A stretch of DNA of 64,000 nt from Tetracentron sinense (Eukaryota; Streptophyta; Magnoliopsida; Trochodendrales; Trochodendraceae): assembly GCA_015143295.1 (NCBI GenBank), contig CM026560.1, positions 2,606,501-2,670,500 on the forward strand, given 5' to 3'. The notes beneath the pieces were generated by a model. It made no database searches and was not told the DNA's origin. It saw only the letters and a list, made by a program, of their open reading frames with translations. Position numbers and translations under genes: made by a program. Shown piece after piece: positions 8,773 through 57,083 of this stretch. Position 1 is the stretch's first letter, and each line of letters starts with the position of its first letter.

Positions 8773-9590
8773 TGTTAAACGATTTCCATTTTACATTCTC
8801 CCTTACGATTTCAAGAACTTGCTCGAATTATTAGAGTAACGTAAAGCTGTACCAAGCATATTGGATGTATTTGTATTTGAAAACAATGTACATGATTTTC
8901 CATTCACAAATCAGCCAACATGTCAATGATACGAAAGTCGATGCCATTTCGGCAGTGTCCAACCAAATTAAATTGCCAAAACAAACCCCTCCAAAATTAT
9001 ACTATTTTGACTCGTGTGTCTTCTCAATTCTAGCTTGAAAATCAAGGCTTTCAGCTTGAACAAAATAAAAGCTTGGCTAGAACAAGCCTAGCCAATGAGC
9101 CAGCTGGGCTTAAATACACCCTCAATATTGACCAAGTCAATGCTAGTCCTGTTTTGTACCGTCCAAATCAACCCAAGTTTAATTACTGTCAAAGAGCAAG
9201 TAGATAATGGCTCGGCTGAGTCTTACTGACTCTTTTCAAGTTGTGGTCAAAATTTAGTCCCTGGGTATCTAGATTTGCTTTCTCTAATGATTTAAAGTGA
9301 ACACAAACGATGCTGCTTCTGTTTTCACCAATTGCTGTAGTTACTAACAAAACACAACAAACTAGAAACATGATTTAGCATTTTCAATGCTCCAAGTAAA
9401 TTATTTTATTTATTTCCAATTCCTTGTTTTAAATGAAACTCTCAAATAGTTGTTATCTAATATATCAAAGTTATTATCAAAGTGGATTTTCATTAGCTGC
9501 TGTAATGGACAATCTTACCTCAAAACTATTAAAAAAAGTGCACCAAAAGAAACAAAAGCAATTAACTAATTTGGAATTAGAAGCATTCTA

Positions 9591-9799
9591 TAAAGAGATT
9601 AACTATGAACAAAGAGATTAACTATGAACAGGCGCCCCGAGTTCAACAGTTAACCGGAGCAACCCAAATTTACCTTGGGAAGTGGTAGTTTGGTAATTAT
9701 AAATACAAAAAATGGTATTTTTAACAATAAATTTTTTCCATAAACACTCCCTCTCAAGGCAATTTTTGGGTTCCTCTTACGCTGCTGATAGTTACTCTC
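9591..9799. repeat. Small MITE, first copy
   Basis: The left end (taaagagattaactat) is inverted at the right end (atagttactctc). TTCTA flanks it on both sides (9586-9590 and 9800-9804). The matching place in copy B, near 55443 (gcattctagaaatagcagg), is the empty site. It is about 209 bp and non-coding. Confidence 0.7.
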
Positions 9800-9865
9800 T
9801 TCTAGAAATAGCAGGATACATACAATTCTATAATTGAATGAAAGGTAAATTCAGTTGGGCAATGC

Positions 9866-10060
9866 ATAAAGAGAGTAACTATGAACAAGAGCTCTAGTTC
9901 AAGGGCAAACCTGAGCAACTAAAATTTTTCCTTACGGCAGGGTAGTTTGGAAATTACCGTACAAAGGAGGAGAATTTCAATCAGCTAATAATTTTCCTTG
10001 TAATTCCTAAACTACCTATCAAGCATATTTTTGTATCGCCTCGGTTTGTTCTTTGAACCA
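9866..10060. repeat. Second member of the same MITE family (right end unclear)
   Basis: Begins ataaagagagtaactatgaa and follows the first copy through gagcaac and gtagtttgg...aattac. The right terminus was not recognised. It sits at the edge of the large block that is absent from copy B. Confidence 0.5.
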
Positions 10061-10976
10061 AAGCCGGTTCATAAATTTATATATATATATAGTAGCGAAA
10101 GCCCCGTGTTATGCATGGGTGTATAAATAATAAAAATAATAATATATATGTAATTAATAAATACATTATAATATATTATTATATTTAATCTCTAATAAAA
10201 TTATTCAATATATTGTTATTAAAATAATAATATTTTATCATATTTACTATCTAATAATATATATTAATAGTGTTTAATTATTTAATTTAAATAATTAAAT
10301 ACCCGTTATTATTTATTAATTTTTTAGTAATTTAATATTAGTGTTAACTGTATTGGACGATACATTACACCAACCTAGAGTTAAAATGGGGGGACATGTT
10401 GTAGTAGTAGTGTTGAATAGATGACCTAATGTGTGGTGGGTTTACATGTGACCTTGGGTGAGTTAATAAAGTCTCCATGTTCAGGTGACATTCCTAGCAT
10501 CTCACATGAGGCAGAGCAATTTTTAGATCACCAGTAATCATAGTTCAGAAACTCGGTAAGTCACCCGAGTAGCTCGGCCGAGTTATTCGACTCGATTGAA
10601 TTTCGATTCGAGTCACTTCAAAAATCGAAGGCGGCACTATTTATCGAGTTACTCAAGTGACTCGGTCGAGTTGAGTTTGTCAACTCACGTAAAAATATTT
10701 TATCATTTTTTAAAACTTAAACTCGAACATCACTTTTTTGCATCATATTTGTTAGCTAGAAAGACAACCTACTGTGGGTTCTATTAAATCTAGATTTTAG
10801 GTTTGAAACCATAAAACTAGCATATTTTGAGTTCTTTTAACTTACTTTTTTCAAGTTATTACATATATATTTCAAGTTGGACCGAGTCGAGTTTTTTTTC
10901 GAGTTTTTCGAGTTATTTGACCCAACTAACTTTCGAGTCGAGTCGAGTTTTCGGGTTTTTGAACCATGCCTGTAAT

Positions 10977-11328
10977 TAGGGGTGTCAATGGGCTGAGTTT
11001 GGGTCAACTCAACCCGGTCCCGACTAGGCTCGATTAATAAATGGGTCGAGCTGGGCTGGGCCAGGCCAGCCCACATTTTAATTGTGACGATTCGGGCTGG
11101 GCCAAGTCGGCCAATCTAAAAAAATATGTACAATTTTTTGCCTACAAACTAAACGGGCCTAATCGGATTGGGTTAGTCAGGTTAAGATCGGTAAGAACCC
11201 TACCAAAATGAGCCACGGGCTTTAGACTCCAAGCCCACCCCAATTAATAATCGGGTCGAGCCGAGTCAGGCCTAGAGCGGGCCGGGCTAGGTGGGCTCAT
11301 GGGCCAGCCCAACCCATTAACACCCCTA
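10977..11328. repeat. hAT-like MITE with 8-bp target duplication
   Basis: The ends TAGGGGTGTCAATGGG and CCCATTAACACCCCTA are near-perfect inverted repeats. The flanks cctgtaat (10969-10976) and cgtgtaat (11329-11336) agree at 7 of 8 positions, the target-site length of hAT transposons. The inside is a GC-rich ggctgggc-type simple sequence, a common layout in plant repeats of this kind. No coding capacity. Confidence 0.75.
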
Positions 11329-11394
11329 CGTGTAATGATATAATAAAATGTATGGACTGCAACAAATCAATTTAAATTGATTATATATCCTATA

Positions 11395-13598
11395 TGTCGC
11401 GCCCCAAAATACCCCTTAGGAGTTAAGGGATACTTTAGGTGTGACTATACATTCCTGCCAAACCATCCTGTAATGAATAAGGTAAACATGATACAATAAT
11501 TCCAATAAGCACAGTGCGAAAGCTAATCATGAGTGCGGAAGCGTGAACTAACTTTTTCTTTTCTTCTATAACTCAACACAGTATTCCAAGTGAAAATATA
11601 CATAACATATCAAGACAAAGGTGGACAGGCCCACCTCTCAAAATATCAAAATATACAAAAAGAACTCTCTCGTACTCTCCTCTTAACAGTAGTCGAGGTA
11701 TGGCCACACCTCCAAATCCCTGTCCTCCTGGGACTGCAATGGGATAAGTGGCTCCCTCTCCTCTACGTACTCTTTCTTGACCCAAGGCTCAGGGTCGGGG
11801 ACATCCATGGAACCTGCCGACATAAAAGTACGGCTGAGCATGGAATACTCAGCGAGTACAAGCTACTAGCTAACCATAGCAATAACAAAAGTACAACAAC
11901 AATGAACACAATGCAAAATATCGATTGAAAGCAATACTAGCAGTATAAGATAAATATCATTGATCATGAAACAATATAAATATCTTAACATGCTTGCATG
12001 AATGCGAAAACTCCGGTAAAACTCATGTTCAGAAATCCTTTTTCATGTCTCGGTCTTGCTTGTGAGCCGGAGGCTAGCACCCGCACATCCTTGGGCTACC
12101 AACCTCCTTGATGTGGTTTTATTTTCTTGTGAGCCAGAGGCTAGCACCTTTCCACTTTGGCTACCAACCTCCTTGACATGTACTTGATTCATTCACTTGT
12201 TTCCTTTCACTTGTGAGCCAGAGACTAGCACCCTTCACTTGGGCTACCAACCTCCTTGACATATGCTTGTTTCTTGTTTGATTTATCATGTACAAATACT
12301 CTTGGAAAACCCGATTCATGCATGCATGCGTGGGTGTGTGTAGCACTTGTAATATCATGATGACAATATGACATGGAGAGTAGTGTATAACAATTCAATC
12401 CATAGTATAAACATGTGCTTATTTAGATAATCTATATGGCATTTAATCAAGGTTATGAGTTTAGATGAAAACTACACATATTCATGATTTCATATTCTTC
12501 ATTGATTGGATAATTTCTCATTTAGGCATTCAATCAAACATATAGCATGTCACATTTCATAGTCGTTTCATTTACTCTTTTTAGTGCATATTTTTCATCA
12601 CATCATTAAGGTACGTTCATTATTTATGGAATGCCCCTACCACCATTTTCCATTTCACACATCACACAACATCCATACGGCATCCAATCGCCTCAATCAC
12701 CATCATACATTCATGCATCCCACCATTTACATTCTTCTTGTTTATATTTAGGGAAAATAGTGCATCTCAAGGGAAAAGAGAAGAATACAAAATTAACATC
12801 ATCATTTTTCAAGGAAACCTTAGGTTATTGCTAAGTGAGTTAGTAGGGTGTAAAAATTGGAAGAGGAAAACCCTTAAAATGACGTGGAGACACTGCCCTA
12901 GCTTGGAGAATGAGTCCTTCATGTTCTTTGCCTTGGATTTGAAGAATCCAAGCTTTTGAGTGAGATCTAGGGAGCTTAAACTCTTGATTTTTGCTCAAGA
13001 GAAACCGTAGGTGAAAGCCCCTCTTTCTCTTCTCTCCCTTTCTCTCAAATGTCTGCCTTAGGGTTTATGAACCCTTAAAGGCTCAGGCAAACCCTTATAG
13101 GCAAGGATTTAACGCTCAAAAGATGAAAAAGCCCTTAATGAAATTTCTGCAAAACGCAATATATCGATCCATCGGTAGTTAAGACCGAACGATCGGTCGC
13201 CTACCGAGCGACCGGTGTTTTGACCGGGCGATCGACCAAAAACATGCTCTCTGGATTTTTCCCCATACAAAAAAGTTAATCAGTCGATAGCTACCGATCG
13301 ATCGGTTGTGGACCGATCGATCACCAGTTTGGAGCGAGCGATCGGTTGTTGACCGATCGATCGCTACATTGGACCGAGCGATCGGTGCTCTTGAGGTTCC
13401 AATTGTTTTGGTCATATCTTTTGACTCGTTCGTCAGATTTTGACGATTCAACTTGCATTGGATTCGTCTTTCGAAAAGAAACATTTCTGGCATTTCAGAA
13501 TTTTCAATTTCCCCCTTATTTATTAATTAGACTATGTAAAAGACCAATTGGCTACGAAAGTGCTATTTATTAAGTACGAAAAAGTCCGGGGTGCTACA
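11395..13598 (-). mobile_element. Solo LTR, gypsy-type family Z, copy 1
   Basis: Starts TGTCGCGCCCCAAAATACC and ends ggggtgctaca. It is flanked by a perfect 5-bp duplication CTATA (11390-11394 and 13599-13603). It aligns along its length with the solo LTR at 32251-34544. No internal retroelement sequence is attached, so it is a solo LTR left by LTR-LTR recombination. Minus orientation is inferred because the other strand starts TGTAGCACCCC and has the tgctcagccgtactttt...gtcggcagg segment typical of chromovirus-like (Tekay/Del) LTRs. It holds three copies of a gtgagcc(a/g)gaggctagcacc unit (about 12058-12265) and a cluster of cgatcggt motifs (about 13160-13390). Confidence 0.85.
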
Positions 13599-14234
13599 CT
13601 ATAAGAGGGAAAAACTAATTATAATTAATAAACTCATCAAATTTAGGAGTGGTCCTATCATTTAATTTTGAAAAAATAACGTTAACCAAGTACATCTAGC
13701 ATCATGTCATTTGATTAATTAAAGATGGTTGATATGTAAGACGACTCATGACATCAATTTGAAGAGAGAATCGAGAGTTTTGAGGTATGCCATGTGGCAT
13801 CAACCAACATATAGTATTAGTATAGATAGATAGATATCAACCAAGAAAAATGACACAAAGGAGAGGTTAGGAAAGAGATGGTCTTTTATTCAAACCAGAG
13901 ACACCCCAAAACAATCTATAACTTACAACAAACCCCATTATTTTCACACTAATAAGTAATGAGTCTTGAGGAAATGGCTAAAACTAGCAATGCAAATCAA
14001 ATAAAGATCTTACAGGCACAACATTCTTCTTATTAGAGTGAGTTCTGCAGAGAAAGAAAGACAAAAAGAAGCCTTCTATAGATACCAATCCCAATCTATC
14101 ATCTCCAACACTGGTGAACTATAAAGCACCCTAATTCTTATTGGAAAATACTAAAACAGTATCTCACAAGGTGTAATCTTTATTAATGTTGAGAAACCCA
14201 AATTCCAAAATTCCACAAGCTCATGAACACAATA

Positions 14235-15233
14235 TGTAATGTTCCCCTTATTAGTTGGCTAGAATTAGATTAGATTTAGGTTTATCTTTAGTTGTTATGA
14301 GTTTATTTATTTAGGAGTCTTGTTTAGTCTATAATATTAGAGTTGTAATCTTTAAATGGGGCATCAATGAATTAAAGAAGAGTTTAGAGGAAAAGTGTCA
14401 TCTCAAATTGGCTACTTCATACGTAACAACTTTAGGGTTGTAACAATTGGTAACAAAGCATGGTTGATTTGTGTTCAAATTATGGGCATCTATACTCTGA
14501 AGGAGCTTATAGAAGATGATCTAATGACTACAAATGATAACATGAAAGCTACGAAAGAGGTATTTTCAGCCTTCAAAACTGTTTTGAACACTTTTTTGTT
14601 ATCTTTTACACCTCCAATTGAAGATGATATTGATAGAAATAAGGATGTAGATGAAGATATTGACAATATACAATATGCAGATGAAGATGGAAAAGAAAGT
14701 GATGATGTACAGATCAGATCTGAAGGAGCAGATTTTTTAAGTGTTAACAATGAGTCCCTTCTTTCATATCTAATCACAAATATGAGATCTGAATCAAAAG
14801 AAATTTTGGGTGTTTGGATCCAACACCAACCATTCTAGTCAAAAATCATCGAGATGAGGGTTAAGCAGATTTCTTATGGTATATTGTAAAGTAATTCATC
14901 TCCACCTAAATGGCCCATCAAAGTCAATTTCAAGAAGAGAACAAAGATGAAGACTGCTTAAACATTTAATGGTCTTCAGTCTTGACGACAAGGTTGTTCT
15001 CAAGTGGTCGGGATTGTAACGTTCCCCTCATTAGTTGGCTAGAATGAGATTAGAATTAGGATAAGTCTTATCTTTAGTTGTTATGAAGTTATTTAATTAT
15101 TTAGGACTATTTTTTAGTCTATAAATATTACAGTTGTAATCTTTAAATGGGGCATAAATAAATTAAAGAGTTTATAGGAGAATTGTCATCTCGAATTGGC
15201 AACTTCATAAATAACAACTTTAGGGTTGTTACA
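14235..15233 (+). mobile_element. TRIM (terminal-repeat retrotransposon in miniature)
   Basis: Two short direct repeats, 14235-14445 (211 bp) and 15015-15233 (219 bp), start TGTAA(T/C)GTTCCCC and end in TTGT(A/T)ACA, the TG...CA form of LTRs. The primer site next to the left LTR reads ttggtaacaaagc, close to the tRNA-Met type. A purine-rich gtggtcgggat precedes the right LTR. The flanks are caata and caatc. Copy B lacks the element (acacaatcacc near 55860). The internal region of about 570 bp has no retroviral enzyme. The structure looks complete for this non-coding class; the LTRs differ at a fair number of sites, so it is not recent. Confidence 0.82.
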
Positions 15234-16248
15234 CAATCACCCTACAAAATCACACCTTCAAATGCCAATTACCCAGAAAAATATTTTCTTCATAGCAATG
15301 CTAATTCTTGAATCCCAAATTTTCCATGTATAGTCACATTCCTTGTGTGAGCACGGATTTTGATACTCACTGGAATTGATTAGGAGTCGCCACTTATTAA
15401 TTTTGAGGGATAAGTCCCGGATATGGATAAGGTCTTGTGATCTACAATGAGAGTCTAGGTAAAAGGTTCGATTAAGTATCAGGGAAGGTGTTAAGCCCCC
15501 TAGGACTTCTATTTTTCAATGGTTACCTACTCCCAAGGTATAAGCCAAATTAATGTCAAAGTTTATTCAAATGCCTAAGTTTTAGAATACATTCATTCTA
15601 AGAAATGAAAAATCCAAACTAGGGTCGAACCCGGATTGGGTTGCCTACATACTCACAAGGGGTGAGATCAGACCAAGTGTAGTTTTGGCACATGAGCCCG
15701 TGCCAAGGCTAGGGGAGTGAGTGTGTGCACCGGGGTGACTAAGGGTCTAGCGCGGGGGCTAGGGTTAGTTAACCGGGTTGGTCAAGTGCATGGTCTTAGG
15801 GTGTTTGGGACCGAAGGCTAAGGAATGAGCCCGAAGGCTTGGGAATGGGTCCGGAGGCCAAGGGTTGAGCCTGGAGACAAAGGATTGGACCCGGAGGCTG
15901 AGGAATGAGCCCGGGGCTAAGGATAAGCCCAGAGGATAAGGGTCTGGGCTCGGAGACTAAACGATTGGGCCCAAGGACAAAGGGTTGGGCCCAGAGGTCA
16001 AGGATTGAGCTTGGAGGATAAGGGATTAATCCGGTTGACTAAGGTTGGCTGGGCCCGATAGGCCAAGGGTAAGTCCAGAGGCTAAGGGTTAGGGCCAGGA
16101 GGTCAAGAGATGGGCCTGGTAGGCCAAGATTGCATATTTTGGATCTTATTGTATTTTTTAGATTTTTTAGGATTTTTTCATATTTTTCCAAATATTAGAT
16201 TGGTCTAACCATGGTTAAAAGTTAACAAAGGTTAAGTTTAACGCCAAT

Positions 16249-17614
16249 TGTAAGCAATGAAATCTCACTGCCTGCAAGGCGGGTGCATGGTGCACCTGCC
16301 TACACAAGATCACCACTCATTGGATTGGCGAATTAGGCTTCGCGCATGCCAAAGGCACGCGCGCCAGCTAGCCAAGGGCTAGCTTACCGTCAGCCCGCTT
16401 AGCATTAAATGCTAAGCAGTAGGGCATTAATGCCCCACGGACACCTTTTGTGTCAGTCCTTATGAGATTGACACGTGGATGGGGGGTTTGCCCTCGTGGA
16501 CAAACCCATATTTAAGCTTGCGGATAGACTCTATGAGTCCATCCGCGGGCCAATCAATGACTAGCCCAGTCTGTGACCATAAAAGGTCATGGACTTGACC
16601 CAGACCAAGGGTTGGACCGATGGTCCTACCCTATATTGGTCTGCGGGCTGACTAAGGTCAGACTCTGAGCCATGGTCCAAATATACTTGGACATGACCTA
16701 GACCGTGGGTGAGACCATGGGTCTCACCTCTTTTATTTGTAGACTGACTAAAGTCAGTCCTCTCCCAGATGACAGCTATTATTTGACCGTCATGTGGTAG
16801 GGAATCCTTAATAAAAAGGAATCTCTGCCATCTTTGGGGGGATCGCAAGATAGAGATCCCCTCTCTTTCTCTAATAAGAGAGTGTCATATGACACCCTAT
16901 TTGAAAGGAAAAGTTATCTCTTCCCTTTTCTTGAAAGATAAGAATCTTTTCCCTTTTGGGGGGGAAAAGTTTAATCCTCCCAGGTTTCCCAAAAAAGGAA
17001 ACCAATTTGGAATCCTTTAAAAAGGACTCTTATCCGGGTGGTATCTCTAAGATAAGAAAAACCAACTGTCTTGAACAGATGGCTCTCTCTAAGGAGAGTT
17101 GGTCTCTTTTGATTTCCTAAAAAAGAGGAAGTCAAAGGGGAGTCAAAAGAGGACTCTCCAAAAGACATAAAAAAGGAAGTTTCTCACAAGAAACTCCCAA
17201 TGCAAAAATACCCACGTATGTAGGGTAGAAGAAAGAGAAAAAACTTTCTTATTGTAGGAACACAGCAACTAGGGAGGAAGAAGAAGGATCTCCCCCATAT
17301 GGAGAATACCAGGTGAACCCTCAATAAGGTCACCTCTCTTTTTGTTCTTTCTTTTTGATGTTAAAACCTCTATGAGGTATCTTGTAACGCCTATATAGGA
17401 TCTGGGCAACCCCATTGAATAAATACAAATACTTTATTCAATATTTGTTCTTCTTTTAATCTTTCTTCTTAATCAGAGGTTCTTCCCCAAATAGGGAAGG
17501 TAATTAACAGTCTGAGTTTACTCAGATTCGAAGGATAGTCTCTCACAATAAACAATAAACTCCATACAATAATGGAGGAAATTTGAAAGCAAAGAAACAA
17601 TTTCACAGCTTACA
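16249..17614 (+). repeat. 5' LTR of the Tat element
   Basis: Starts TGTAAGCAATGAAATC and ends cagcttaca, matching the 3' LTR along its length. It holds the paired gcgggtgcatggtgcacctg palindrome near 16280, and a polyadenylation-like tail region (gaataaatac) near 17420. No confident primer binding site was seen just after the LTR; aattaatgccaagcccgg is a poor match to any plant tRNA end. Confidence 0.88.
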
Positions 17615-34544: not shown

Positions 34545-34549
34545 GTATG

Positions 34550-42738: not shown

Positions 42739-42834
42739 GGCAGCCTCAACCAGCTTAGGGCCTTCAGGCAATGTTGATTTTTCATCATAAGGGGTTTTGA
42801 ACATTCATTTGTGTAACAAAAACTTCCCTTATTA

Positions 42835-42840
42835 AATAAA
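42835..42840 (+). terminator. Candidate polyadenylation signal of the lectin gene
   Basis: AATAAA about 100 bases after the lectin stop codon, in AT-rich sequence, at a suitable distance for plant 3' end formation. Confidence 0.45.
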
Positions 42841-42849
42841 TCTGGTTTA

Positions 42850-43352: not shown

Positions 43353-43360
43353 CTTATCAA

Positions 43361-44154
43361 TTGGGGTGGCAATTGGATTGGGTTGGGCTGGGCTGGGCTG
43401 GGCTGGCCCAAAGCTTGGGTGGGCTAAGCTTTCCTTCTTTTGGGCTAGGCTGAGTGTGGACAAGAATATATGACCGAAGTAAATATTGGGATGAGCTTGG
43501 GTTGCCCTTAACTCAGCCTGAATTCAGCCTAACCCAAACTAAAGAATTTTAACATTTTTATATATAATATATATATAGAGAAAGAAGCCAACGACTTAAT
43601 CTCATTCTCATTCAATTGAATTGATGTCCTTCATATGGAAAAATTATTTTTTGGTTTGCTTATCTAAGAATGGTACCAAGTTACTAGTACTGTTTTTTTT
43701 TATAAAAAAATTTCTAGTCTTGTTTATTAAGGGTTTCGAAACCAGTTCTTCTATTAGACAAACGCCTCCAAGAACTAATTACTAGTTGAAGGAATTAGGT
43801 ACCAAGAACAATAATTGCTTGATTTTACTAAACTAATTCTTATGCATTGCAGGTAGGTGTTTAAGGAAAAATTAACAAGCAACAACAGGAGAACTCAACC
43901 CAAATTCAGCCCAAACTTATCCCGAACTCATCCCACAAGCTGCTTAATTTGGGCCAACCCAAACTCAGCCCGAACGCAGTCCACACTCTGCTTACTTTGG
44001 TCAGCCCAAACTTAGCCTGAAGCTCGATATTCTTTGTGAGCCCAGCCTGGGCTAGGGTGCTTGGACTGATATTGGGTTGGGTTGGGTTGGGCTAAGGTCT
44101 TGAACTCTGGGTTGAGCTTGGGCTAATCCCAGCCCGACCCAATTGCCACCCCTA
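43361..44154. repeat. hAT-like non-autonomous element with perfect 8-bp target duplication
   Basis: The ends TTGGGGTGGCAATTGG and CCAATTGCCACCCCTA are inverted. CTTATCAA is repeated exactly at 43353-43360 and 44155-44162. The flanks inside the ends are gggctgggctggg-type and aactcagcccgaac-type simple repeats. The middle carries tatatatagagaaagaagcc...aattgaattgatg. It is 794 bp without transposase. Its right part is repeated at 45200-45835 by the tandem duplication. Confidence 0.82.
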
Positions 44155-45195
44155 CTTATCAACCATGGAGAGCTTCCTTTGTTCCTGATCAACAATGGAT
44201 TTCCTTCATTGATCAAGAAGAGTCTTCAAACATTTCATTACCTATTGTTTCAACTGAGATTTCCACAAGAGAGCTTCATTCCACTAAACTAGTAACCATG
44301 ATTGTGAGAGAACGTCATTAACCGAAGGAAAATGTCCATTTTTGAATTTTTTGTGTTTTCTTTTAAGTGAATTAGTTTAACCTAAAGAAAATAATTATAA
44401 TAATTGTATTTATGATTTTAAAGCTTAAATTCCATATTACATGATTTTACATATGTTTTCTTTGCATTTTTTTTTATGATTTAGAGTGTATGGTCGATAC
44501 CCAACAAGTAGGATCGATATTTCGTATAGATACTGGTTATGTTCCAAGGTTCAAGATTCCCCGTTTGTTCCTCTATTGTCCGACAAAAGCTCAACCTGAG
44601 AAGCAACTGCAGCAACAACAACTGATATGGCGACATCTGCTCCTTTTATCCGGAAAACTCATTTCTTCACTGGCTGCCAGGATTGCTTGGCTTTACAACT
44701 CGACACCAGGAGAGGCTTCCATTCATACTACACTTTGGTGACTGAGCACTCCATTCTCGTCACAAATGAAGACCTTCTTTGGAAATCTGAGTCTGCAAAC
44801 ATCTCCACACAAAGGAGAGGCGAGAGGCAAGCCCCTCTTTCGGTAGTGAGTTTATCAGTGAACAATGGGTGGGCTATGAGGCTAATAATCTTATCATCCA
44901 CGCATGCTAGTAAGTACTTCGGAATCAATCTCTACATCTCCAAATCTGAATAGCTCCCATAGAACTCCAATGCTTGGATGTATTTGATAACCATGTAAAT
45001 ATCAGTAACTAATATGAAAGTCAATACCAGTTTGGCAGAGTCGAACCAAATTAGACTGCCAAAACAAACACCTCCAAAATTACACCATTTTAACTCTCAG
45101 GGTGTATCTTCAAGCCGGTCAAAAGCTCGAAAATCAAGACTTAAAGCTCAGGTTGAACAGAAGAGGCAATCTCAAGATCGGATCGAACTTGATCG
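43510..45195 (+). repeat. Tandem duplication, unit 1
   Basis: About 1.7 kb, starting inside the hAT-like element (aactaaagaattttaac) and ending with the block tttggcagagtcgaaccaaa...gaagaggcaatctcaagatc. Unit 2 follows head-to-tail from about 45196. Most differences between units are single bases and small indels. Confidence 0.8.
44500..44950 (+). other. Unrecognised exon-like sequence, unit 1
   Basis: An open frame of about 109 codons begins at the ATG at 44627 (MATSAPFIRKTHFFTGCQDC) and continues LALQLDTRRGFHSYYTLVTE. Upstream there is a C/A-rich stretch (gcaactgcagcaacaacaac). It recurs in unit 2 (about 46160-46580), where the frame is not kept through to the same stop. I recognise no family. 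It could be a fragment of a host gene or part of a non-autonomous transposon; coding status is doubtful. Confidence 0.25.
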
Positions 45196-46855
45196 AACTT
45201 AACTCAACCCGACCCGAACTAAAGATATTTAACATTTTTATATATAGTATATATATAGAGAAAGAAGCTCACGACTTAATCTCATTCTCATTCAATTGAA
45301 TTGATGCCCTTCGTATGGAAAAATTATTTTTGTGTTTGCTTATCTAAGAATGGTACCAAGTTACTAGTTCTATTTTTTTATAAAAAAAAATTCTAGTCTT
45401 GTTTATCAAGGGTTTTGAAACCAGTTCTTTTGCTATTAGACAAACGCCTCTAAGAACTAATTACTAGTTAAAGGAATTAGGTACCAAGAACAATGATTGC
45501 TTGATTTTACCATACAAATTCTTATGCATTGCAGGTAGGTGTTTAAGGAAAAATTAGTAAGCAACAATGGGAGAACTCAACCTGAATTCGGCCTAAACTT
45601 AGCCCGAACTCCTCCCACGAGCAGCTTAATTTGGACCAACCCAAACTCAGCCTGAACTCGGCCCACACTCTGCTTACTTTGGGTCAGCCCAAACTCAGCC
45701 TGAAGCTCGATATTCTTTGTGAGCCCGCTTGGGCTAGGGTGCTTGGATTGATATTGGGTTGGGTTGGGCTAAGGTTTTGAACTTTAGGTTGAGCTTGGGC
45801 TAATCCCAGCCCGACCCAATTGCCACACCTACTTATCAACCATGGAGAGCTTCCTTTGTTCCTGATCAACAATGGAGTTCCTTCATTGATCAAGAAGAGT
45901 ACTCAAACATTTCATTACCTATCGTTTCGACTGAGATTTCCATAAGAGAGTTTCGTTCCGCTAAACTAGTAACCATAATTGTGAGAGAACGTCATTAACC
46001 GAAGAAAAATGTCCATTTTTGGATTTCTTGTTTTTTTTTTTAAATGAATTAATTTAACCTAAAGAAAATAATTATAATAATTGTATTTATGATTTTTAAC
46101 CTTAAATTCCATGTTACATAATTTTACATGTGTTTTCTTTGCATTTTTTTTTTATGATTTAGAGTGTACGGTCGATACCCAACAAGTATGATCGATACTT
46201 CGTATAGATACTGGTTATGTTTCAAGGTTCAAGAATCCCCGTTTGTTCCTCTATTGTCCGACAAAAGCTCAACCTGAGAAGCAACTGCAGCAACAGCGAC
46301 TGATATGGCAACATCTGCTCCTTTTATCCAAAAAACCTATTTCTTTACTGGCTACCAGGATTGCTTGGCTTTACAGCTTGACACTAGGAGAGGCTTCCAT
46401 TCATACTACACTTTGGTGACTGAGCACTCCATTCTTGTCACAAATGAAGACCTCCTTTGGAAAATCTGAGTCTGCAAACATCTCCACACAAAGGAGAGGC
46501 AAGCCCCTCTTTCGGCAGTGAGTTTATCAGTGAACAATGGGTAGGCGATGACGCTAAGAATCTTATCATGCCCAATATGAGTTTGAGCCAAACTGGAATG
46601 GATCATCCACGCACACTAGTAAGTACTCCAGGGTCAAAGAAGGAGCCATTTTGTATCCAAACACCACAGACCCTTGTCCAAAATCTTTTTGCTTCAGCTC
46701 TACACTATCCAACTCTAAAATAAAACCCCCGTGTCCAGAGAGAAAATCTCAATAGAACTTCAATGCTTCAGAATGAATCTTTGCATCTCGAAATTTGAAC
46801 AGCTCCCATAGAACTCCAATGCTTGGATGTATTTGAAAACCATGTAAATATTGGT
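45196..46855 (+). repeat. Tandem duplication, unit 2 (split by the LINE; continues at 54276)
   Basis: Repeats unit 1 from aactaaagatatttaac onwards as far as atgtatttgaaaaccatgta near 46848. The rest of the unit (ttcggcagagtcgaatc...cgagatcggattgaac) resumes at about 54276-54835 on the far side of the LINE and leads directly into copy B of the TCP locus. Confidence 0.78.
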
Positions 46856-46871
46856 AAATGAATCTTCTTCC

Positions 46872-48333
46872 ATGGCTGCCTCGTGATCCGAGTCCTCATG
46901 ATGTAGCAGATATCTCTTCTTTGGTTGAGGTCATGGACTTCTCTCACTGTCAGGAAGCTTCTGTTGGAGATTTCGAGAATGAAACATATCTTCTTGTTGA
47001 TTTGATCAACTGAGTCCCTGTTGCAATCGATGTTCCACGTGTCCAACTGGGATTGATTCTTCATTAATGGTATGTGATGTTTCTTTTCCATGCGGAACTG
47101 GCCTTAACATGCTTTCCAACAGAATTTTACCTTCTCTTGATACCGTACAAGTACGGATAGGCAAATGTTGTATTGTGTCAGGATCAGAATCAGTCCCCTC
47201 TCTGATCGTCTTCTCCAGCGAGCTATCCCCTGAAAACTCTCCCCCAACATCTCCTGCCTAACTTGTTCTTTAAACATGCTAAAGGCCAACTCCGAAAATG
47301 AAAGGCTTCCGCACGAAGCCAGGAACCAAAAAGCTGGATTTTCCCTTTACCCGTGTTCCTCAACTCATCTCTCGCTACTTCCCGAACTTGGTGGCAGTGT
47401 TTGTCATCGTGGCCCATTCGCCCACAAATGTAACAACATGTGGGGAGTTTTTCATAAGTTAGTGGGAAAGGGGTGAGAACTGTGGTTTTTTTATGAGTAT
47501 TTGGGTTGATGGACGTTCTGGGTAAGGTCACATAAGGTCTCAACAATAGGGATATTTGAAAATGGATGCGTATTCTAAGAAACTTACCTCGTTGAGAGTT
47601 AACACCAGTCAAATCCACCTCTTCCAGTCGGCCGAGCCTATCTACTATAGCCTTACCGACCTCAAAGTTCATATATTCCAGAGGTAATTTGTGAACTTGC
47701 ACCCACAGGGGAATGGTGGGTAATACGAGATCCGCTACGATAATATCCGGCTTCCATTTCATCAAAAGGAAGGGTGTCCATTGAAGGACCATGGTTGATG
47801 TTCCATCACCCGATCGACTTCCTCATTGTTTGAGAACTTGAATAGGATGAAATCGTTTTCTAGTTCGATTATACTCACTAGCCCGTTAGAGTTCCACGCA
47901 TTGATTGTAGTTCTTTTTGCTGCTGCCTTGTTTACTAGTCTATCTGTGACAAGCTTTCTAATGATACTATGTTTGTACTTCTTCTCGTCCGATAGTATGG
48001 ATGGTATGATGTTAATGGGCTCATTCAGGTTCATGCAAACTCAGGCAATGGTTAATTGCTTCTGCAAGGGACTCAGGTGTGGATTTTGGGGAATGATACA
48101 AAAGATGGGTGTGGAAAAGGTTTGAGCCACCGCCGGGAACGGGGTAGGAAAACGCTTCACAAGGAAGAAGATCGATAACCCCAAATCTGATGACAGTCTC
48201 AACAACCCGGACACCCGAAACCATTTCCATACCACAATCGCCAAATAACACCATACCCACTTCCATCTTACCCACAAAGCCCATGTTACAAGCCCAGCCA
48301 ATTGACATATCTAATGACTACAATCGGGTTTCT
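46872..48333. repeat. LINE inverted segment, tandem unit a
   Basis: 1462 bp from atggctgcctcgtgatccga to caatcgggtttct. Unit b follows immediately with the same start and end. Confidence 0.88.
47223..48034 (-). pseudogene. LINE ORF1, copy a (DUF4283 and CCHC knuckle)
   Basis: The minus strand starts with MNLNEPINIIPSILSDEKKY. It runs through a DUF4283-like part (FILFKFSNNEEVDRVMEHQP, then WVQVHKLPLEYMNFEVGKAI) and a knuckle CCYICGRMGHDDKHC (near 47400-47443), the layout of plant L1 ORF1 RNA-binding proteins. The frame shifts near 47770-47790, inside the DUF4283 part. Opposite in orientation to ORF2, which is abnormal for an L1. Confidence 0.8.
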
Positions 48334-49841
48334 ATGGCTGCCTCGTGATCCGAGTCCTCATGATGTAGTGGATATCTCTTCTTTGGTTGAGGTGATGGAC
48401 TTCTCTCAATGTCAGGAAGCTTCTATTGGAGATTTCGAGAATGAAACATATCTTCTTGTTGATTTGATCAACTGAGTCCCTATTGCAATCGATGTTCCAC
48501 GTGTCCAACTAGGATTGATTCTTCATTAATGGTATGTGATGTTTCTTTTCCATGCGGAACTGGCCTTAACATGCTTTCCAACAGAATTTTACCTTCTCTT
48601 GATACCGTACAAGTACGGATAGGCAAATGTTGTATTGTGCCAGGATCAGAATCAGTCCCCAGCGAGCTATCCCCTGAAAACTCTCCCCCAACTTCTCCTG
48701 CCTAGCTTGTTCTTTAAACATGCCAAAGGCCAGCTCCGAAAATGAAAGGCTTCCGCACGAAGCTAGGAACCAAAAAGTTGGATTTTCCCTTTACCCGTGT
48801 TCCTCAACTCATCTCTCGCTACTTCCCGAACTTGGTGGCAGTGTTTGTCATCGTGGCCCATTCGCCCACAAATGTAACAACATGTGGGGAGTTTTTCATA
48901 AGTTAGTGGGAAAGGGGTGAGAACTGTGGTTTTTTTATGAGTATTTAGGTTGATGGACGTTCTGGGTAAGGTCACATAAGGTCTCAGCAGTAGGGATATT
49001 TGAAAATGGATGCGTATTCTAAGAAACTTACCCCGTTGAGAGTTAACACCAGTCAAATCCACCTCTTCCAGCCGGCCGAGCCTATCTGCTATAGCCTTAC
49101 CGACCTCAAAGTTCATATATTCCAGAGGTAATCTGTGAACTTGCACCCACAGGGGAATGGTGGATAGTATGAGATCCGCTACGATAATATCTGGCTTCCA
49201 TTTCATCAAAAGGAAGGGTGTCCATTGAAGGACCATGGTCAATGTTCCATCACCCGATCGACTTCCTCATTGTTTGAGAACTTGAATAGGATGAAATCGT
49301 TTTCTAGTTCGATTATACTCACTAGCCCGTTAGAGTTCCACGCATTGATTGTAGTTTTTTTGCTGCTGCCTTGTTTACTGGTCTATCTATAACAAGCTTT
49401 CTAATGATACTATGTTTGTACTCCTTCCTGTTTGATAGCATGGATGGTATGATGTTAATGGGCTCATTTAGTTCATGCAAACTCAGGCAATGGTTAATTG
49501 CTTCTGCAAGGGACTCAGGTGTGGCCGTCTGGTTTCCTAAAGGGCTAGATCCTGCCTTGATTGAGATGAAGGGTTATGTGGATTTTGGGGATTTTGGGGA
49601 ATGATACAAAAGATGGGTGTGGAAAAGGTTTGAGCCACCGCCGGGAACTGGGTAGGAAAACGCTTCACAAGGAAGAAGATCGATAACCCCAAATTTGATG
49701 ACAGTCTCAACAACCCGGACACCCGAAACCATTTCCATACCACAATTGCCAAATAACACCACACCCACTTCCATCTTATCCACAAAGCCCATGTTACAAG
49801 CCCAGCCAATTGACATATCTAATGACTACAATCGGGCTTCT
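48334..49841. repeat. LINE inverted segment, tandem unit b
   Basis: 1508 bp, almost identical to unit a. It lacks a short ctctctgatcgtctt segment present in unit a near 47199-47213 and has an extra stretch of about 55 bases at about 49524-49580 (ggccgtctggtttcctaaag onward). Confidence 0.88.
48690..49476 (-). pseudogene. LINE ORF1, copy b
   Basis: Tandem duplicate of copy a with the same DUF4283 and CCHC segments (knuckle near 48845-48890). Small indels relative to copy a (for example in the tract near 49360 and at the presumed start near 49474) break the N-terminal frame. Same inverted orientation. Confidence 0.78.
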
Positions 49842-50153
49842 ACACCCAAGCACACGGAATTAACACAACCGAACCCAAAAAATCCTTCAGTTCAAAAGGT
49901 AGGCAAGACAGAACAAATATCCCCTAAACCCAATAAGAAAGCCAACAGGCCCAGCAGCCCACGAACTTTTAAGCCTCAGCTCCATCCACACCCAAAGGCC
50001 AGCATCCTAATAGAAACTGGTATTGAGGAGGAGACAACTTCAAGGAGCTCTTCAGAATGGGAGTTGAATTCAGCTATGGAAGTGGCCACTAGCTCAAAGA
50101 TCACAACACCTTCTGGGGTGGCTGCCAGGGAGCAGTCACCCCAGTCACAATGA
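49842..50153 (+). pseudogene. C-terminal tail of LINE ORF1 in direct orientation
   Basis: Just after the inverted segment the plus strand reads a Pro/Lys/Ser-rich tail (TPKHTELTQPNPKNPSVQKV onward) without stops. It ends at TGA 50151-50153, which overlaps the ORF2 start codon as ATGA. The tail sits where ORF1 should end in an unrearranged L1. Confidence 0.6.
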
Positions 50154-50660
50154 AAACCTTAGCCTGGAACTGTCAGGGGTTGAGGCAAACTCGGACAGTT
50201 CGAATTTTGAAGGATATAGTCCTTCGATTTAGACCCAATGTTATTTTTCTTATGGAAACGAAGAATAAAAAGAGCATTATTGATCGCGTAGCGCACTCTT
50301 GCAAGCTCGGTAATGTTTTCGTGGTGGACCCGATCAGTAAGTAGGAGGTCTTGCTATTCTTTGGGCTGATGCAATCCAAATCAAAATTCTGGAATATGAT
50401 CTCAACAGTATTGATTTGGAAGTAGTAGATAGCAATTCTGAGAGGAGAATCACATTCGTGTATGGGCCTAATGAGTGGAGTAGGAGGAAAGAATTGTGGA
50501 AGAAATTAGCTGATAGAGGCGAGACTCGTCAGCAACCGTGGTTGTGTATGGGGGACTTCAACGATATCTTAACAGTGGAAGAGAAGTTGGGTGGAAACAC
50601 TCCAGCTCCAGGTCATCTCCGACCTTTTCAAGACATAGTATCGTCGGCCAACCTAATGGA

Positions 50661-50718
50661 TTTGGGTTATCAGGGGCCTCTATTCGACCAAGTAAATAGA
50701 GGCCCCTGATAACCCAAA
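50661..50718. repeat. Perfect 24-bp inverted repeat in the LINE endonuclease region
   Basis: The left arm 50661-50684 and right arm 50695-50718 are exact reverse complements around a 10-base loop (cgaccaagta). The core of each arm is tatcaggggcctctatt and its complement. It interrupts the endonuclease where plant L1s normally have a Trp-Thr-containing segment, so it looks like a local inverted duplication in this copy. Confidence 0.85.
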
Positions 50719-52348
50719 GGCTTGAAAAGGACTAACCCAAAGGCTCTGGTGCATGTTTTTCTGGCTATAGGATCAAATCATAGCCCAATTCTAGTAATGG
50801 ATGAAATGCAAAATAGCAGGCGAAAGAAGTCATTTCGCTACAAAGACATGTGGAAAAATCACCCAAACTGCAAAGAGGTGATTGCCAAGGCTTGGGGACG
50901 GAGTTGTGAAGGGTCCTATATGTTCAGACTATGTCCAAAGATTAGTCTTTGCAGGGAAGATCTCATTCGTTGGAATAAGCACACTTTTGGATACCTACCA
51001 ACCAAAATTCAAAATCTCAAATACCAAATAGGAGTGCTTCAGGAAAGAGATCAATCTGAGGAAAATATCTTCCAAAAACAAGGTCTTTTGGTAGATTTGG
51101 ATCAAGCGTACTAGCAGGAGGAAGCGATGTGGCATCAAAAATCGAGGTTTGATTGGATGAAGCTTGGGGAGAGGAACACCAGGTTCTTTCATACAACAGC
51201 TATTCATAGACGACAAAGGAATAGGTTGGTGACCATAAAAAACGAGGCGGGAAGATGGACCCAATCTGAAGCCGAAACAGAAGAGGTGGTTTTAGAGCAT
51301 TTCAAAGATCTTTATACTTCCTCAACAGTAGATCAATACCAGGAAGTTCTTCAAAACGTCCAACCGAAAATCACATCTCAGATGAATGGTGAGTTATGCA
51401 GAACAATCACTAGAGAGGAAATCGAGCAAGCAATGTTCAGTATTGGCCCTCTCAAGGCTCCAGCTCCTAATGGTATGCCAGGTACTTTTTTTCAAACAAA
51501 TTAGGAAACTATTGGGGATGATGTTTGTAATGCGGTGCAGAGCTTCTTTCAAAACAGGTATCTATTAAAAGATTTAAATTTCACTATAGTTCTGATACCA
51601 AAAGTTCCTAACCCCGATAACATGGCTCACTTTCGTCCAATAAGCCTTTGTAATGTCACTTATAAGGTCATTGCCAAAATCCTAGCAAACCGCCTTCGGA
51701 ATTCCCTCGATCAAATCATTGATCCGGCCCAATCAACTTTCATAAAAGGCCGACAAATAACCGACAATGTTTTCATGCCCCAAGAAGTGCAGCATTTCCT
51801 CAAACGACAAAAGAAGGGTCCCAACAAGTTTGCGGCAATCAAACTAGACATGAACAGGGCATATGATCGAGTGGAGTGGAATTTTCTATTTGTCCTCATG
51901 GATCGGTTGGGCTTTCATGCCGATTGGATTCACCTCATCAAGTAATGCATTACTACGGTTCGATATGCAGTCATGATTAACGGTGCACCAAAAGGGTATA
52001 TCAATCCTTCACGAGGGCTTCGACAAAGTGATCCTTTATCCCCTTATCTATTTCTTATTTGCGCTGAGACTTTATCTAGTATGTTGCAGATAACCCATAC
52101 AGGCGGACAAATAAGTGGCATTAAGGTGGCCTGAAGTGCTCCCAGTCTATCTCATTTACTCTTCACTGACGATTGTCTTATCTTTTTGAAAGTAGACCTG
52201 GACGAACCAAAACACCTGATGGATATTCTGGGTGGGCGAGCTTCGAGTTAACTGGTTAATTATTCCAAATCGGGTATTTCCTTTAGCTCTAACACCCCCT
52301 CCAGATTCAGACGGATCATAGCAAGAGTTTTGCATATAAGGAACCTAG

Positions 52349-52371
52349 CCCCCCCCCCCCCCCCCCCCCCC
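52349..52371 (+). repeat. Run of 23 C
   Basis: An uninterrupted C homopolymer inside the LINE ORF2. Length may be unstable or mis-assembled. Confidence 0.8.
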
Positions 52372-54275
52372 AAACAAATACTTGGGGCTGCCGGTAGAGC
52401 TCGGTCGATCTAAAGGGAATGCCTTCAAATCAATCCAACATCGTATGGGCCAAGGGATGCAAGGTTGGTCTGCCTCTCTCCTCTCGCAAGCAAGTTGGGG
52501 GATTATCATTCGGGCAGTTATTCAGGCCATTCTGGCATACATGATGAGTTGCTTCAAGCTCCCAACGAAGTGGATCAAAGAGGTCAATGCAAGTATAAGT
52601 CGGTTCTAGTGGGATCATAGAAAGGATAAAAAAATTCATTGGCTCAGTAGGATTAAACTCTGTAAATCGAAAGAGAATGGTGGTCTTGGCTTGAGAGACC
52701 TATAGGCCTTCAACCTGGGTCTTCTAGCAAAGCAGGGATGGAGGATTTTGACCCAACTGGAGGCCCTTTAGGTTAGAGTAATGAAGACAATCTATTTTCC
52801 TTGTTCTTCATTCATAGAAGCAACAAGCGGCAGACAACCATCCTGGGTTTGGAGAAGTTTACTGGCTGGTAGGGCTATTCAAAAACTTGGTACTCGATGG
52901 CAAATCGGAGATGGGGACTCGGTGAGAGCAACCAAGGATCCATGGATCCCTTCACTTCCTCAATTCATGGCCATTGCGCGTACAAGTGAATCAGATCTGA
53001 ATACACTTGTCTCTCGGTTAATGCACAAAGAGGAAGGAACATGGAATGATACAAAGCTTCAAAGAATCTTCTCCGAAGCTACTGTTATGGAAATTCGGAA
53101 GATATCGTTTAGTTCGTTCAATGTTCCAGATAGACTGCTTTTTCATTATTCCCAATCTGGGAAATTCGAAGTGAAATCAGCATTTCATTTAGCTCTACAA
53201 TACCTAGTAGCTCAGAGGGCGTCAACTAGCGTGGTCGGCACGGAGAAGGAAGATATGAATTGGAATCAGATTTGGCAGCTACCCATTCCTCCTAAAATCC
53301 AAGTGTTTTTGTGGAGAGCATGTAATAGTGCTCTTGCCGTAGCCCCTAACCTGTGCAAGAGAAACATAGCAGTGGATCCCATTTGCCACATGTGTCAAAA
53401 TCACGAAGAATCCATATCCCATCTATTTTTGGAGTGCAATTTCCCTAAGTCCATTTGGTTCGAATCGAACCTATCCATATTGCCCACAACTGCTTCGGAT
53501 GGATCGTTCATGAGTTGGTGGAAGAAATGGTCCTCTCGAATGGAGTTCAAAGCTGAGAACTATCATCTGGCCTCTCACCTAACGGTAACACTTTGGCATA
53601 TATGGAAAGCCTGAAATGAATTCCTATTTGAAGGGACTAGGCCACATCCTATTAAAACAATCCATCGGATAAACCAATTCGTTAGAGAATTGGGAATGTC
53701 GCAACCAGCAAGCTCAGTGGAAGACCAGATTAGAGTGAGGCGTGACGTGAAGTGGCAGCCGCCTGATCCAGGGTGGATCAAAATAAATGTGGATGGGGCT
53801 TCCCCCCCTAGGATTCTTGCAGTAGGAGCTGCAACTGTAGTGCGGAACCATGATGGCTCGATTTACATCACAAGATGCAGAGCAATGGAAGGGAGAAATG
53901 CAAGACAAGCAGAAGCGGAGGGTATAAAGCTAGCCCTTCAAATGACAGTGAGCTATAAATGAGACAAAGTGATCGTGGAGTTAGATGAAAAGACAATTAT
54001 TGATCTCATCTCCGATAACACTAAGATGGGTCATTGGGATATCGAAACGATATTGGCGGATATAACAATTCTTAAAAAATCTGTAGAACCGTGAAGTTTG
54101 AGTTTATCCCAAGAGAAGCTAACGAACTTGCTCACCATCTAGCCCAAAGAGCTCTCAAAGAGAACATTGCACAACTTTCTATGTATTCAGCTCACGAGGA
54201 CTCTACTAGCAGGTTGAGATGTTTTTTGTTGTAATTCCTCCTCAATGTAACAGATATCTCATTACCAAAAAAAAA

Positions 54276-56620
54276 GTATATATGTCAGTTCGGCAGAGTC
54301 GAATCAAATTAAACTGCCAAAGCAAACCCCTCCAAAATGGCAAAAGATTAACTCTGGTGGACGCCCTAGCTGGGGGCTCGGGCATCGATTAGATGTGGGG
54401 CACCTTTTTTTTCTTTTTTTTTTTGGGTGAAGGATATATATTAAAGAGCCAAAAAAATCAATTACATCAAGGAGGTCGATTCCTCCGATTAGACAACAAC
54501 CTTCTACAGCCCATCAGATCTAAAACAAAATATTGGAAACAACCATCTACAGCCCCTCGGGGCACCTTGGCGATAATAAAGGGGGGAGATATCAAGTGGG
54601 GAGAAGTCAAAATCATGGGGAGAAAATGAAATGACTTCTCCCCCAAATTATCGCCAGGTGCCCCATGACTTGTGGACACTCGAGCAACCACAGCTAATCT
54701 TTTACCCTAAAAAATTACACCATTTTGACTCTCGGGGTGTATCTTCAAGCCGATCACAAGCTCGAAAATCTAAGGTTTAAAGCTCAGGTTGAACAGAAGA
54801 GGCAAGCTCGAGATCGGATTGAACTTGATATATATATAAAAAATTATTATATGCGATACTTATTTATTATTTTATTAATATATGTTATAAAATTCATGCC
54901 AAGCACCAAGCCTCAAACAAGCTGAGCTGAATCAAACAAGTGAGCCGAGCTCGGCTTGCTTACAGTGCTCAAATAAAAGCTCAGCTTGACCGAGCCAAAA
55001 ATTCGGAGCCGAGTCAAAGAGCTAGCTGGGCTGGAATCTAGTCCTGTTTTGTATTGTCCAAATCAACCCAAGTTGAATTACTTACTGTCAAAGAGCAAAG
55101 TAGGTAATGGCTCGGCTGAGTCATACCGACTCTCTCCATGTTGTGGGCAAAATTAGTCGTTGGGTACTTAAATTTGCTTTCTCTAATGATTTAAAGTGAA
55201 CCCAAAGGATGCTTCTTCCATTTTTTAATTACTGTAGTTACTAACAAAACCCAACAAACTAGAAACATTATTACATTTCCAATGCTCCAATTAGATCATG
55301 TTATGTCCAACTCCTTAGTTTTTAATGATACTCTCAAATAGTTATTACCTAAATATACCACAGTTATGATCAAAGTGGCTTTTCATAATTAGCTGTTGTA
55401 GTGGATAATCTTACCTCAGAACTAGTAATTTGGATTAGAGGCATTCTAGAAATAGCAGGAGGTTAGATAAACTTGAGTTGGGCATTGCAGATGAAATAAA
55501 ATGACACAAAGGAGAGGTTAGGAAAGAGAGAGATGTTCTTTTATTTTAAACAGGAGACACCCCCCAAACAATCTATAACATACAGCAAACCCCATTATTT
55601 TCACACTGATAAGTGATAAGTCTTGAGGAAATGACTAAAAATAGAGATGCAAGTCAAATAAAGAACTTACAGGCACAACATTCTCCTTATTAGAGTGAGT
55701 TCTTCAGAGGAAGAGAGACAGAGCCCTGCCACAGATACCAACCTCAACCCCAATTCTTATTGGCAATCACTAAATCAGTATCTCACAAGGTGTAATCTTT
55801 ATTAATGTCGAGAAGCCCAAATTCCAGAAGCTCGACTCAACCGTGAAATGAACACAATCACCCTACAAAATCACACCTTTTCCATATCATATATCAATCG
55901 CCATAATAACCAAGCTTCAAAGGCCAATTACCCAGAAAAGTGTGTTTTCTTCGCAGCAGGAGCCATTTCTTGAATCCCCAAGTATAGTCACATATACCCA
56001 GTCTTCATGATCCCCATCAGAGTAGCAAAACAAAACCACATTTTGAAGTGAACAAAGAAGCAATGGACCATAAACCCTAATTTCGAAATAGAAGACCATA
56101 AACCCTAGCTTTTCCCATGCCCCCCATATAATCCCAAATCCCTTTGTAATCGTAATCCAAACAAGGCCCCCAATCCCACTGGCGCATTGACAAACCCTAA
56201 TTCCTCACTCCAACAAAAAACCCCCGAACGCTTAGAAAGGGACCACTAAACCCTAATTTCAACAAAAAGTAAAGTAAAACCCTATAGATAAGGATAATCC
56301 AGCTTCCTTCCACAAACCCTAGTTCTTCCCCCCAATAACTCAAACTAAAACCCTAACCCTAGCACTCACACATACAAATACAAATACAAATACAAATCAG
56401 CGAGGCTCACTGTCTCTCCTCCCGGATAAAGACGCAAGCAAATTCAGATGGCCTTGCGCTATCGGAAAATAATTCCCAATTCTCGCCGCCGATGCCTCTC
56501 CAATGGGTTGCTGCAAAAACCTCGAAGCCTGCGACGACATTGCACCCATCTCCGGTGCCGCTGCAAAACTCCAAACCTGCCCAAAATCCGGTCGAGCCGG
56601 CACAGCCCAGAATCCACCTC
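54276..56620 (+). repeat. Segmental duplication copy B (intact TCP locus flank)
   Basis: The uninterrupted counterpart of copy A, apart from the MITE at 54339-54708. It runs from the ttcggcagagtcg block through ctttctctaatgatttaaag (55180) and ccccattattttcacactga (55590) into the 3' flank and coding end of the TCP gene. Homology to copy A is lost inside the TCP coding region. Confidence 0.85.
54339..54708. repeat. MITE inserted in copy B flank
   Basis: The ends ggcaaaagattaactctggt and the complement of accacagctaatcttttaccct are inverted with a few mismatches. The related place at 45075-45100 (cctccaaaattacaccatttt) lacks it, giving the empty site. The inner sequence gagaagtcaaaatcatgggg is shared with fragments at 41127-41200 and 58710-58770. 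Confidence 0.7.
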
Positions 56621-57083
56621 CGGTGGGGCCCATAACAGCAGCAGCAGCAGCAGCAGCAGCGCCATCGTCTCTTGCACCGTCCTCTGCATCATCCTCGCTC
56701 CTGAGGCGCTTACCGAGTATGAACGGCTGCGTCGGTTTCTGATCAAGCGAAGCTGAAATGGACGTACCGGATGAACCCCTGACGGAGACGGCAACGGCGG
56801 AGAAGCTCGCCGGGGTGGTGCCGGTGCCTGTGGCAGCGATGATGGACGGCTCCGCTTGGCGGAGAAGCCACTCGATGGTCTGACCGTCGGATTTGTGACC
56901 CAGTTCTCGGGTCAGCTGGAATACCCTGGCGGCGCAGATGATCGGCATGCGGATGCGCCGCCCTCGCCCGTCCACTTTGCTGTGCCGGTCCTTCGCCGGA
57001 GCTTTCTTCACTGTTACCGCCGACTGCTGTCGTTCCTGGTCTTCCATGATAGCACCGTTAGTAACGCCGTCAGTAGTAGACAT
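56397..57083 (-). CDS. TCP7/21-like: Class I TCP transcription factor (TCP7/TCP21 clade)
   Basis: A 228-residue, single-exon nuclear transcription factor. The TCP domain spans about residues 28-85: basic region [17 protein letters not shown], then [20 protein letters not shown] and [20 protein letters not shown]. This is the short class I (PCF) form, which binds GC-rich GTGGGNCCC-like sites. Cys50 is the conserved class I cysteine linked to redox control in the family. Further motifs are an eight-Ala tract (about 142-149), [19 protein letters not shown] (155-173) and the C-terminal [20 protein letters not shown] (202-221), as in the TCP7/TCP21 clade. Length is normal for the clade. Start is the first ATG (57083); Met13 is an alternative. 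The 5' leader is rich in CT repeats on the coding strand. A minus-strand AATAAA lies at 55540-55545, which would mean a long 3' UTR. It looks intact and functional; its duplicate at 39178-39350 is dead. Confidence 0.95.

Follow-up and report, generated by a model that had tools for sequence, protein, structure and literature searches.

Introduction

Partial gene duplicates that have been overrun by transposons are familiar in plant genomes. The locus described here, found in a window of 64,000 nucleotides from Tetracentron sinense (the whole stretch of DNA that was analyzed, with a GC content of 40%), is therefore mainly a clear worked example of this kind, with a transposon-loaded copy (copy A) and a copy that holds an intact class I TCP gene (copy B). 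In its TCP gene and its elements of plant type, the window has the look of nuclear DNA from a plant. As in the partial gene duplicates and fragments that plants acquire by tandem duplication or as break-repair filler, copy A is a truncated piece with noncoding flank that lies near its parent. A work on wheat (PMC3445842) describes how gene fragments of this sort come from break-repair filler or from transposon capture; in contrast to the fragments of that type, the copy described here is local, lies on the same strand and is accompanied by a third partial copy. The nested LTR retrotransposon and LINE insertions of plant intergenic DNA are also matched at this locus, by LTR pairs with target-site duplications and by a LINE that ends A-rich and whose 5' part looks inverted; nothing unusual was seen in them. 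Finally, part of another work (PMC9624357) describes the loss of CpG through methylation in transposable elements. Copy A resembles such C-to-T decay of methylated DNA in its excess of T/A, but differs in that the excess lies in host sequence between elements and is known from sequence alone.

Duplication of a TCP locus

Judging from colinear blocks on the same strand, which lie at 8.9-39.3 kb in copy A and at 54.3-56.5 kb in copy B, the duplication of the TCP locus is real. The aligned blocks were the following:

8941-8997 (A) and 54282-54338 (B), same strand, 88% identity
9143-9532 (A) and 55038-55428 (B), same strand, 84% identity
13847-14210 (A) and 55498-55829 (B), same strand, 79% identity
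15231-15258 (A) and 55852-55879 (B), same strand, 28 bp, 100% identity
15234-15339 (A) and 55895-55993 (B), same strand, 74% identity, overlapping the perfect 28-bp piece in A
38800-39304 (A) and 56030-56523 (B), same strand, 81% identity

In the self-comparison of the window, the three long blocks scored 464, 406 and 329 bits, far above the best score of 37.4 bits obtained when 100 dinucleotide shuffles of copy B were compared with the window. The same order and orientation of the blocks that an earlier note on this DNA had reported were thus recovered. The dispersed distribution that the same note had named as the result to fear was not what the window held: within it, every block except the left end occurred exactly twice and colinearly, as expected of the non-repetitive, same-strand blocks of a local segmental duplication, and the left end occurred three times (copies A, B and C). 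A further short block of copy A, 9802-9868, could be aligned to copy B after leaving out the adjoining insertions. The two copies were divided as follows:

8868-9592, outer 3' flank block of copy A, from the block matches, with faint similarity out to 8822
9802-9868, short flank block of copy A between two insertions, from the alignment with insertions removed
13841-14234, flank block of copy A, from the A/B match
15234-15344, flank block of copy A, from the A/B match
38788-39177, 3' UTR and flank block of copy A, from the A/B match
39178-39336, minus strand, last ~50 TCP codons of copy A, in frame, with the same stop as B
54276-56396, 3' UTR and 3' flank of copy B common with A, from the A/B match
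56397-57083, minus strand, complete class I TCP gene of copy B, 228 aa, from the PF03634 and TCP15 matches

The score of the similarity at 8822-8897 was equalled by 2 of 300 shuffles.

An intact TCP gene in copy B and its coding tail in copy A

The copy B open reading frame matched PF03634 at 2.8e-29 (103.1 bits, cut-off 23). Its TCP domain matched TCP15 structures at 113.6 bits (over 63 residues) and 112.6 bits, compared with 22.8 and 21.5 bits for the class II factor TCP10, and because the TCP15 match was far better we assign the gene to class I (PCF-type). The complete class I TCP gene that had been proposed for copy B was thereby confirmed, with a length of 228 aa; it may resemble the TCP7/TCP21 subgroup. 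Copy A differs from class I TCP factors in having no TCP domain, and a Pfam search of its 67-aa frame gave no match. What it retains, as had also been proposed, is the end of the gene: about 50 codons with an open frame and the same stop, matching aa 177-227 of the copy B protein with 74.5% identity over 51 columns (tblastn). There was no further TCP copy in the window, the other TCP tblastn matches having E values of 4.7 or more.

The detectable A/B homology ends at 39336, where the missing 5' three quarters of the gene would end, and no element boundary was found at this position. A match of 14 bp right at this edge was counted within the homology (1 of 500 shuffles reached its score); extension past 39336 stayed at chance level (49/500 and 23/100 shuffles reached the score). 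To the right of 39336, candidates for the missing TCP coding part or for the gene's promoter were rejected, as they were MITE-like, AT-rich or chance-level matches.

Over 42 ungapped codons of the coding tail (stop included), codons of the two copies differed nonsynonymously in 6 cases and synonymously in 3, with rates of ~0.064 at nonsynonymous and ~0.106 at synonymous sites and a ratio of about 0.6. The tail of copy A carries no frameshift and differed from B at 9 of 127 sites, compared with 180 of 1099 in the noncoding flank (p = 0.004; the noncoding sum omits the left block and those at 15234-15344 and 9802-9868). This lower divergence would fit a period of constraint on copy A. It is no proof that copy A was functional, because with only B constrained about half of the neutral divergence is expected, which can explain the deficit; we therefore dropped coding conservation as proof of a past function of copy A.

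Insertions in copy A

The insertions in copy A amount to 28,623 bases, or 94% of its span of 30.5 kb, which is 13.3 times the span of B (edges partly set by eye). These values agree with the ~28 kb of inserted DNA and the more than tenfold swelling given in the earlier note. The elements are:

9593-9801, MITE, terminal inverted repeats 9593-9610 and 9784-9801
9869-13840, 4.0 kb insertion whose start is the terminal motif of the MITE at 9593-9801
14235-15233, 1.0 kb LTR element of TRIM size, LTRs 14235-14445 and 15015-15233
15345-38787, nested insertion of 23.4 kb, outer identity judged by eye
16249-37153, plus strand, inner Ty3-like LTR element, LTRs 16249-17614 and 35804-37153

The 1.0 kb element has a target-site duplication, CAATA/CAATC, that is clear but imperfect, and both this and its size fit a TRIM-like element. 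The inner element of the nested insertion is a Ty3-like LTR retrotransposon, with an LTR pair, a target-site duplication matching at four of five bases (CCAAT/CCAGT) and RT/RNase H domains (RT_RNaseH 6.5e-22, RVT_3 5.4e-07); an integrase was not found in the pieces of it that were searched. The outer part of the 15345-38787 insertion may, judged by eye, be a ~2.5 kb solo LTR. Empty sites had been thought visible for most insertions. This is true only in part: the 1.0 kb LTR element and the Ty3-like element have clear but imperfect target-site duplications; no target-site duplication was visible for the 9869-13840 insertion or for the outer element at 15345-38787, and the insertion site of the MITE is blurred. 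The 4.0 kb insertion contains a stretch, 11391-13602, that is 66-73% like 32247-34548.

Inside the Ty3-like element, open frames were also observed on the minus strand at 29124-32236, opposite its RNase H frames; those at 29124-29675, 30420-31076 and 31670-32233 had no Pfam match. Elsewhere in the window, a remnant of a Copia-type retrotransposon was seen at 1225-3351 (plus strand), with Pol_BBD at 3.9e-20 (2980-3348) and gag-type matches below the cut-off, and a MITE-like inverted-repeat family with a common TTAACCACAGTTAA-like core was seen at 5339-5885, 41600-42160 and 60921-61290. No RNA family matched at gathering thresholds, and of 18 pattern matches to relatives in viral contigs none was confirmed.

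The flank of copy B

To the left of copy B, the following features were recognized:

43518-45008, X, a tandem repeat of X', 91.6% BLAST identity
45012-45193, copy C, in which the left end of the block occurs a third time, K2P 0.103 to B and 0.203 to A
45198-46867, X', the copy B block continued to the left of the LINE, junction reproduced
46868-54275, plus strand, LINE of ~7.4 kb in the 3' flank of copy B, 5' part apparently inverted
46868-49842, tandem duplication inside the LINE, 46868-48334 against 48330-49842, 95-97% identity
54340-54710, insert in copy B, apparently compound, terminal inverted repeats by eye

The LINE ends in A9 at 54267-54275, coinciding with the left edge of copy B, and no clear target-site duplication was seen. 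On its plus strand we found RVT_1 at 1.6e-16, RVT_3 below the cut-off (0.0023) and Exo_endo_phos just under the cut-off (3.2e-05), together with zf-RVT at 2.8e-21. The ORF1 domains, DUF4283 and zf-CCHC_4, lie on the minus strand opposite the RT, an orientation that would be expected after a 5' inversion. The internal tandem duplication, of 1.46 kb, is young and spans the junction of the ORF1 and RT strands.

Copy C directly follows X, and the same junction is obtained when X' (to 46867) is set beside copy B (from 54276). Therefore copy B continues leftwards at X', and the LINE's empty site can be seen in copy C. The insert at 54340-54710 is absent from copies A and C and looks compound, because a 64-bp stretch of it recurs at 41128-41191 and 58714-58787. 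Copy B does not, then, carry just one MITE, as had been described, but a LINE of ~7.4 kb at its left edge and a compound-looking insert. The proposed comparison of one locus with and without transposons is weakened: the A/B pair is loaded unequally, but copy B is not a clean control, since besides the 7.4 kb LINE its flank took up an insert of 0.37 kb and underwent a local tandem duplication. The case of the LINE also shows how a neighbouring insertion can be mistaken for the end of a duplicated block.

Several other features lie in or near this region. The three copies of the short repeat (41128-41191, 54578-54641 and 58714-58787) are 88-95% alike, and the last stands in a palindromic, MITE-like setting at 58655-58835. 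By eye, a hAT-like element with the terminal inverted repeat GGGGTGGCAATTGG/CCAATTGCCACCCC was seen inside X at 43363-44152. The open frame of X and X', of up to 117 aa, had no Pfam match in X, and its PDB search gave just two unconvincing hits, with E values of 0.44 and 0.73. A complete 136-aa ORF for a GNA-like (monocot-type mannose-binding) lectin with a signal-like start was observed at 42328-42735 (plus strand), in the stretch that separates copy A from copy B; it had PDB matches down to 4.1e-40 and a Pfam B_lectin score of 29.5 bits, below the cut-off of 32.4. Two of its three QxDxNxVxY sites look intact.

Relative ages

Ages were compared from transversions alone, on which methylation should have little effect, and they place the events in a rough relative order. 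The transversion distance was 0.087 ± 0.010 between copies A and B, 0.067 ± 0.019 for the 1.0 kb LTR element, 0.020 ± 0.004 for both the Ty3-like LTRs and X/X', 0.018 ± 0.011 for C/B and 0.0035 ± 0.0015 for the duplication inside the LINE. The dating of LTRs against the duplication that had been suggested thus gave a mixed outcome: the Ty3-like element looks younger, at about a quarter of the age of the duplication by transversions, and the 1.0 kb LTR element is not clearly younger, because its distance is within error of that of A/B. By K2P, the values were 0.161, 0.173 and 0.227 for the A/B noncoding blocks, 0.119 for the Ty3-like LTRs, 0.108 for the small LTR element, 0.103 for C/B, 0.075 for X/X' and 0.033 for the LINE duplication. 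The Ty3-like LTR pair appears relatively older by this measure, since transitions make up most of its differences (119, with 27 transversions, compared with 92 and 88 in the A/B noncoding blocks).

One-sided transitions between the two copies

Over the six A/B blocks (block 9802-9868 left out), transitions with A/T in copy A and G/C in copy B numbered 78, compared with 42 in the reverse direction (p = 0.0013; all p values here are single-test, and the direction of change is read from the A/B pair alone). After trimming one block the counts were 77:41 (MAFFT). They were 63:36 in the four better blocks (p = 0.009) and 57:35 in the three noncoding blocks (p = 0.028), and a pairwise aligner gave the same direction (59:21, 48:17 and 42:16 for six, four and three blocks). 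Transversions had the same lean, 30:22, which was not significant (p = 0.33).

By sequence context, over aligned C and G positions, 11 of 48 CpG positions of B were changed to T/A in A and 1 of 29 in the reverse direction (p = 0.025). The corresponding values were 55/445 and 34/433 for CHH (p = 0.033) and 12/71 and 6/56 for CHG, which was not significant; per position, the T/A excess of copy A was strongest at CpG. Four control repeat pairs were balanced overall (X/X' 35:36, Ty3-like LTRs 56:63, LINE duplication 17:18, small LTR element 5:3), with the Ty3-like LTRs uneven at CpG alone (5/47 and 11/48, p = 0.17). The simplest reading would be deamination of methylated cytosines in copy A, which lies between elements that are likely silenced. 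A drift in base composition that differs near an active gene could add to the asymmetry.

Origin of copy A

We find it fairly probable that copy A arose by a partial local duplication, was truncated from birth and then underwent transposon loading and loss of C:G pairs. Some 2 kb of DNA, comprising the last ~50 class I TCP codons and the 3' flank, would have been duplicated locally in the same orientation with a breakpoint inside the coding sequence, and copy A would never have had the TCP domain. At the breakpoint, either a tandem duplication unit would have ended or a segment would have been pasted in during break repair. Dispensable, copy A would then have collected the MITE, the 4 kb insertion, the TRIM-sized LTR element and the nested 23 kb LTR insertion; embedded in silenced chromatin, its C:G pairs would have changed to T:A faster than those of copy B. 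Copy B would have kept the gene and its 5' side, and its 3' flank would later have been partly tandem-duplicated (copy C) and hit by the LINE.

A simple tandem model of this duplication meets a difficulty, because A and B are separated by the lectin gene, X, C and X', for which no clear counterpart was seen to the left of A. Where the model expects the end of A to abut the unit of B, 39337-43517 holds the lectin gene and MITE-like matches. A tblastn search for a lectin remnant left of copy A gave one chance hit (E 8.2). When the left side of copy A was compared with X or X' in five Smith-Waterman tests, the scores were reached by 2/300, 2/300, 9/300, 3/300 and 33/200 shuffles; the first two tests correspond to the match of the X tail just left of the A block, the third and fourth to AT-rich alignments, and any further homology of this side to X/X' would be faint. 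Insertion of the segment as a patch avoids the difficulty.

Other histories of copy A are less probable. A full second TCP gene, made by tandem duplication, constrained for a time and later deprived of its 5' three quarters by deletion, would fit a remaining frame that is open, free of frameshifts and less diverged than the flank. We nevertheless regard this history as unlikely, as no 5' part or promoter stands to the right of 39336 beyond the MITE-like and AT-rich matches, and a dN/dS of about 0.6 can follow from constraint on B alone. The order implied by the earlier note, in which transposon insertions made copy A lose its gene, agrees with the heavy load of copy A and with its lack of a TCP domain. 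Yet all four insertions are downstream of the stop codon (39178-39180), at or to the left of 38787, and the nearest is 391 bp away; lying at least that far 3' of the stop, they cannot account for the loss of codons 1-176. With no element at the 39336 edge, and with a Ty3-like element so much younger than the duplication, the supposed passage from swollen to dead fails and this order is improbable, even if silencing of its 3' flank could have harmed the expression of copy A. Hardest to credit is an origin of the shared blocks as a dispersed repeat or as a transposon-captured fragment instead of a local duplication. The three occurrences of the left end in the window would suit such an origin, which the rest of the structure makes very improbable: the other blocks, two-copy and colinear within the window, span the end of the gene and its 3' flank, copy C runs through flank sequence and not through one element only, and no terminal repeats bound the whole of copy A among the matches seen.

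Significance of the A/B pair

Taken together with the partial local duplication that we prefer, the overall picture is of an ordinary kind of genome decay, whose twist is the one-sided mutation pattern. What the earlier note had seen in the sequence was for the most part correct. The useful part is that the same host sequence is present in a transposon-rich and in a less loaded setting, with a one-sided C:G/T:A pattern between them. We put forward, tentatively, the possibility that the host sequence of copy A is a methylation scar from the surrounding transposons and that the A/B pair measures the mutational cost of silencing. If this is true, the comparison of A and B would give, inside a single genome, the cost to neighbouring host DNA for each base and each sequence context.
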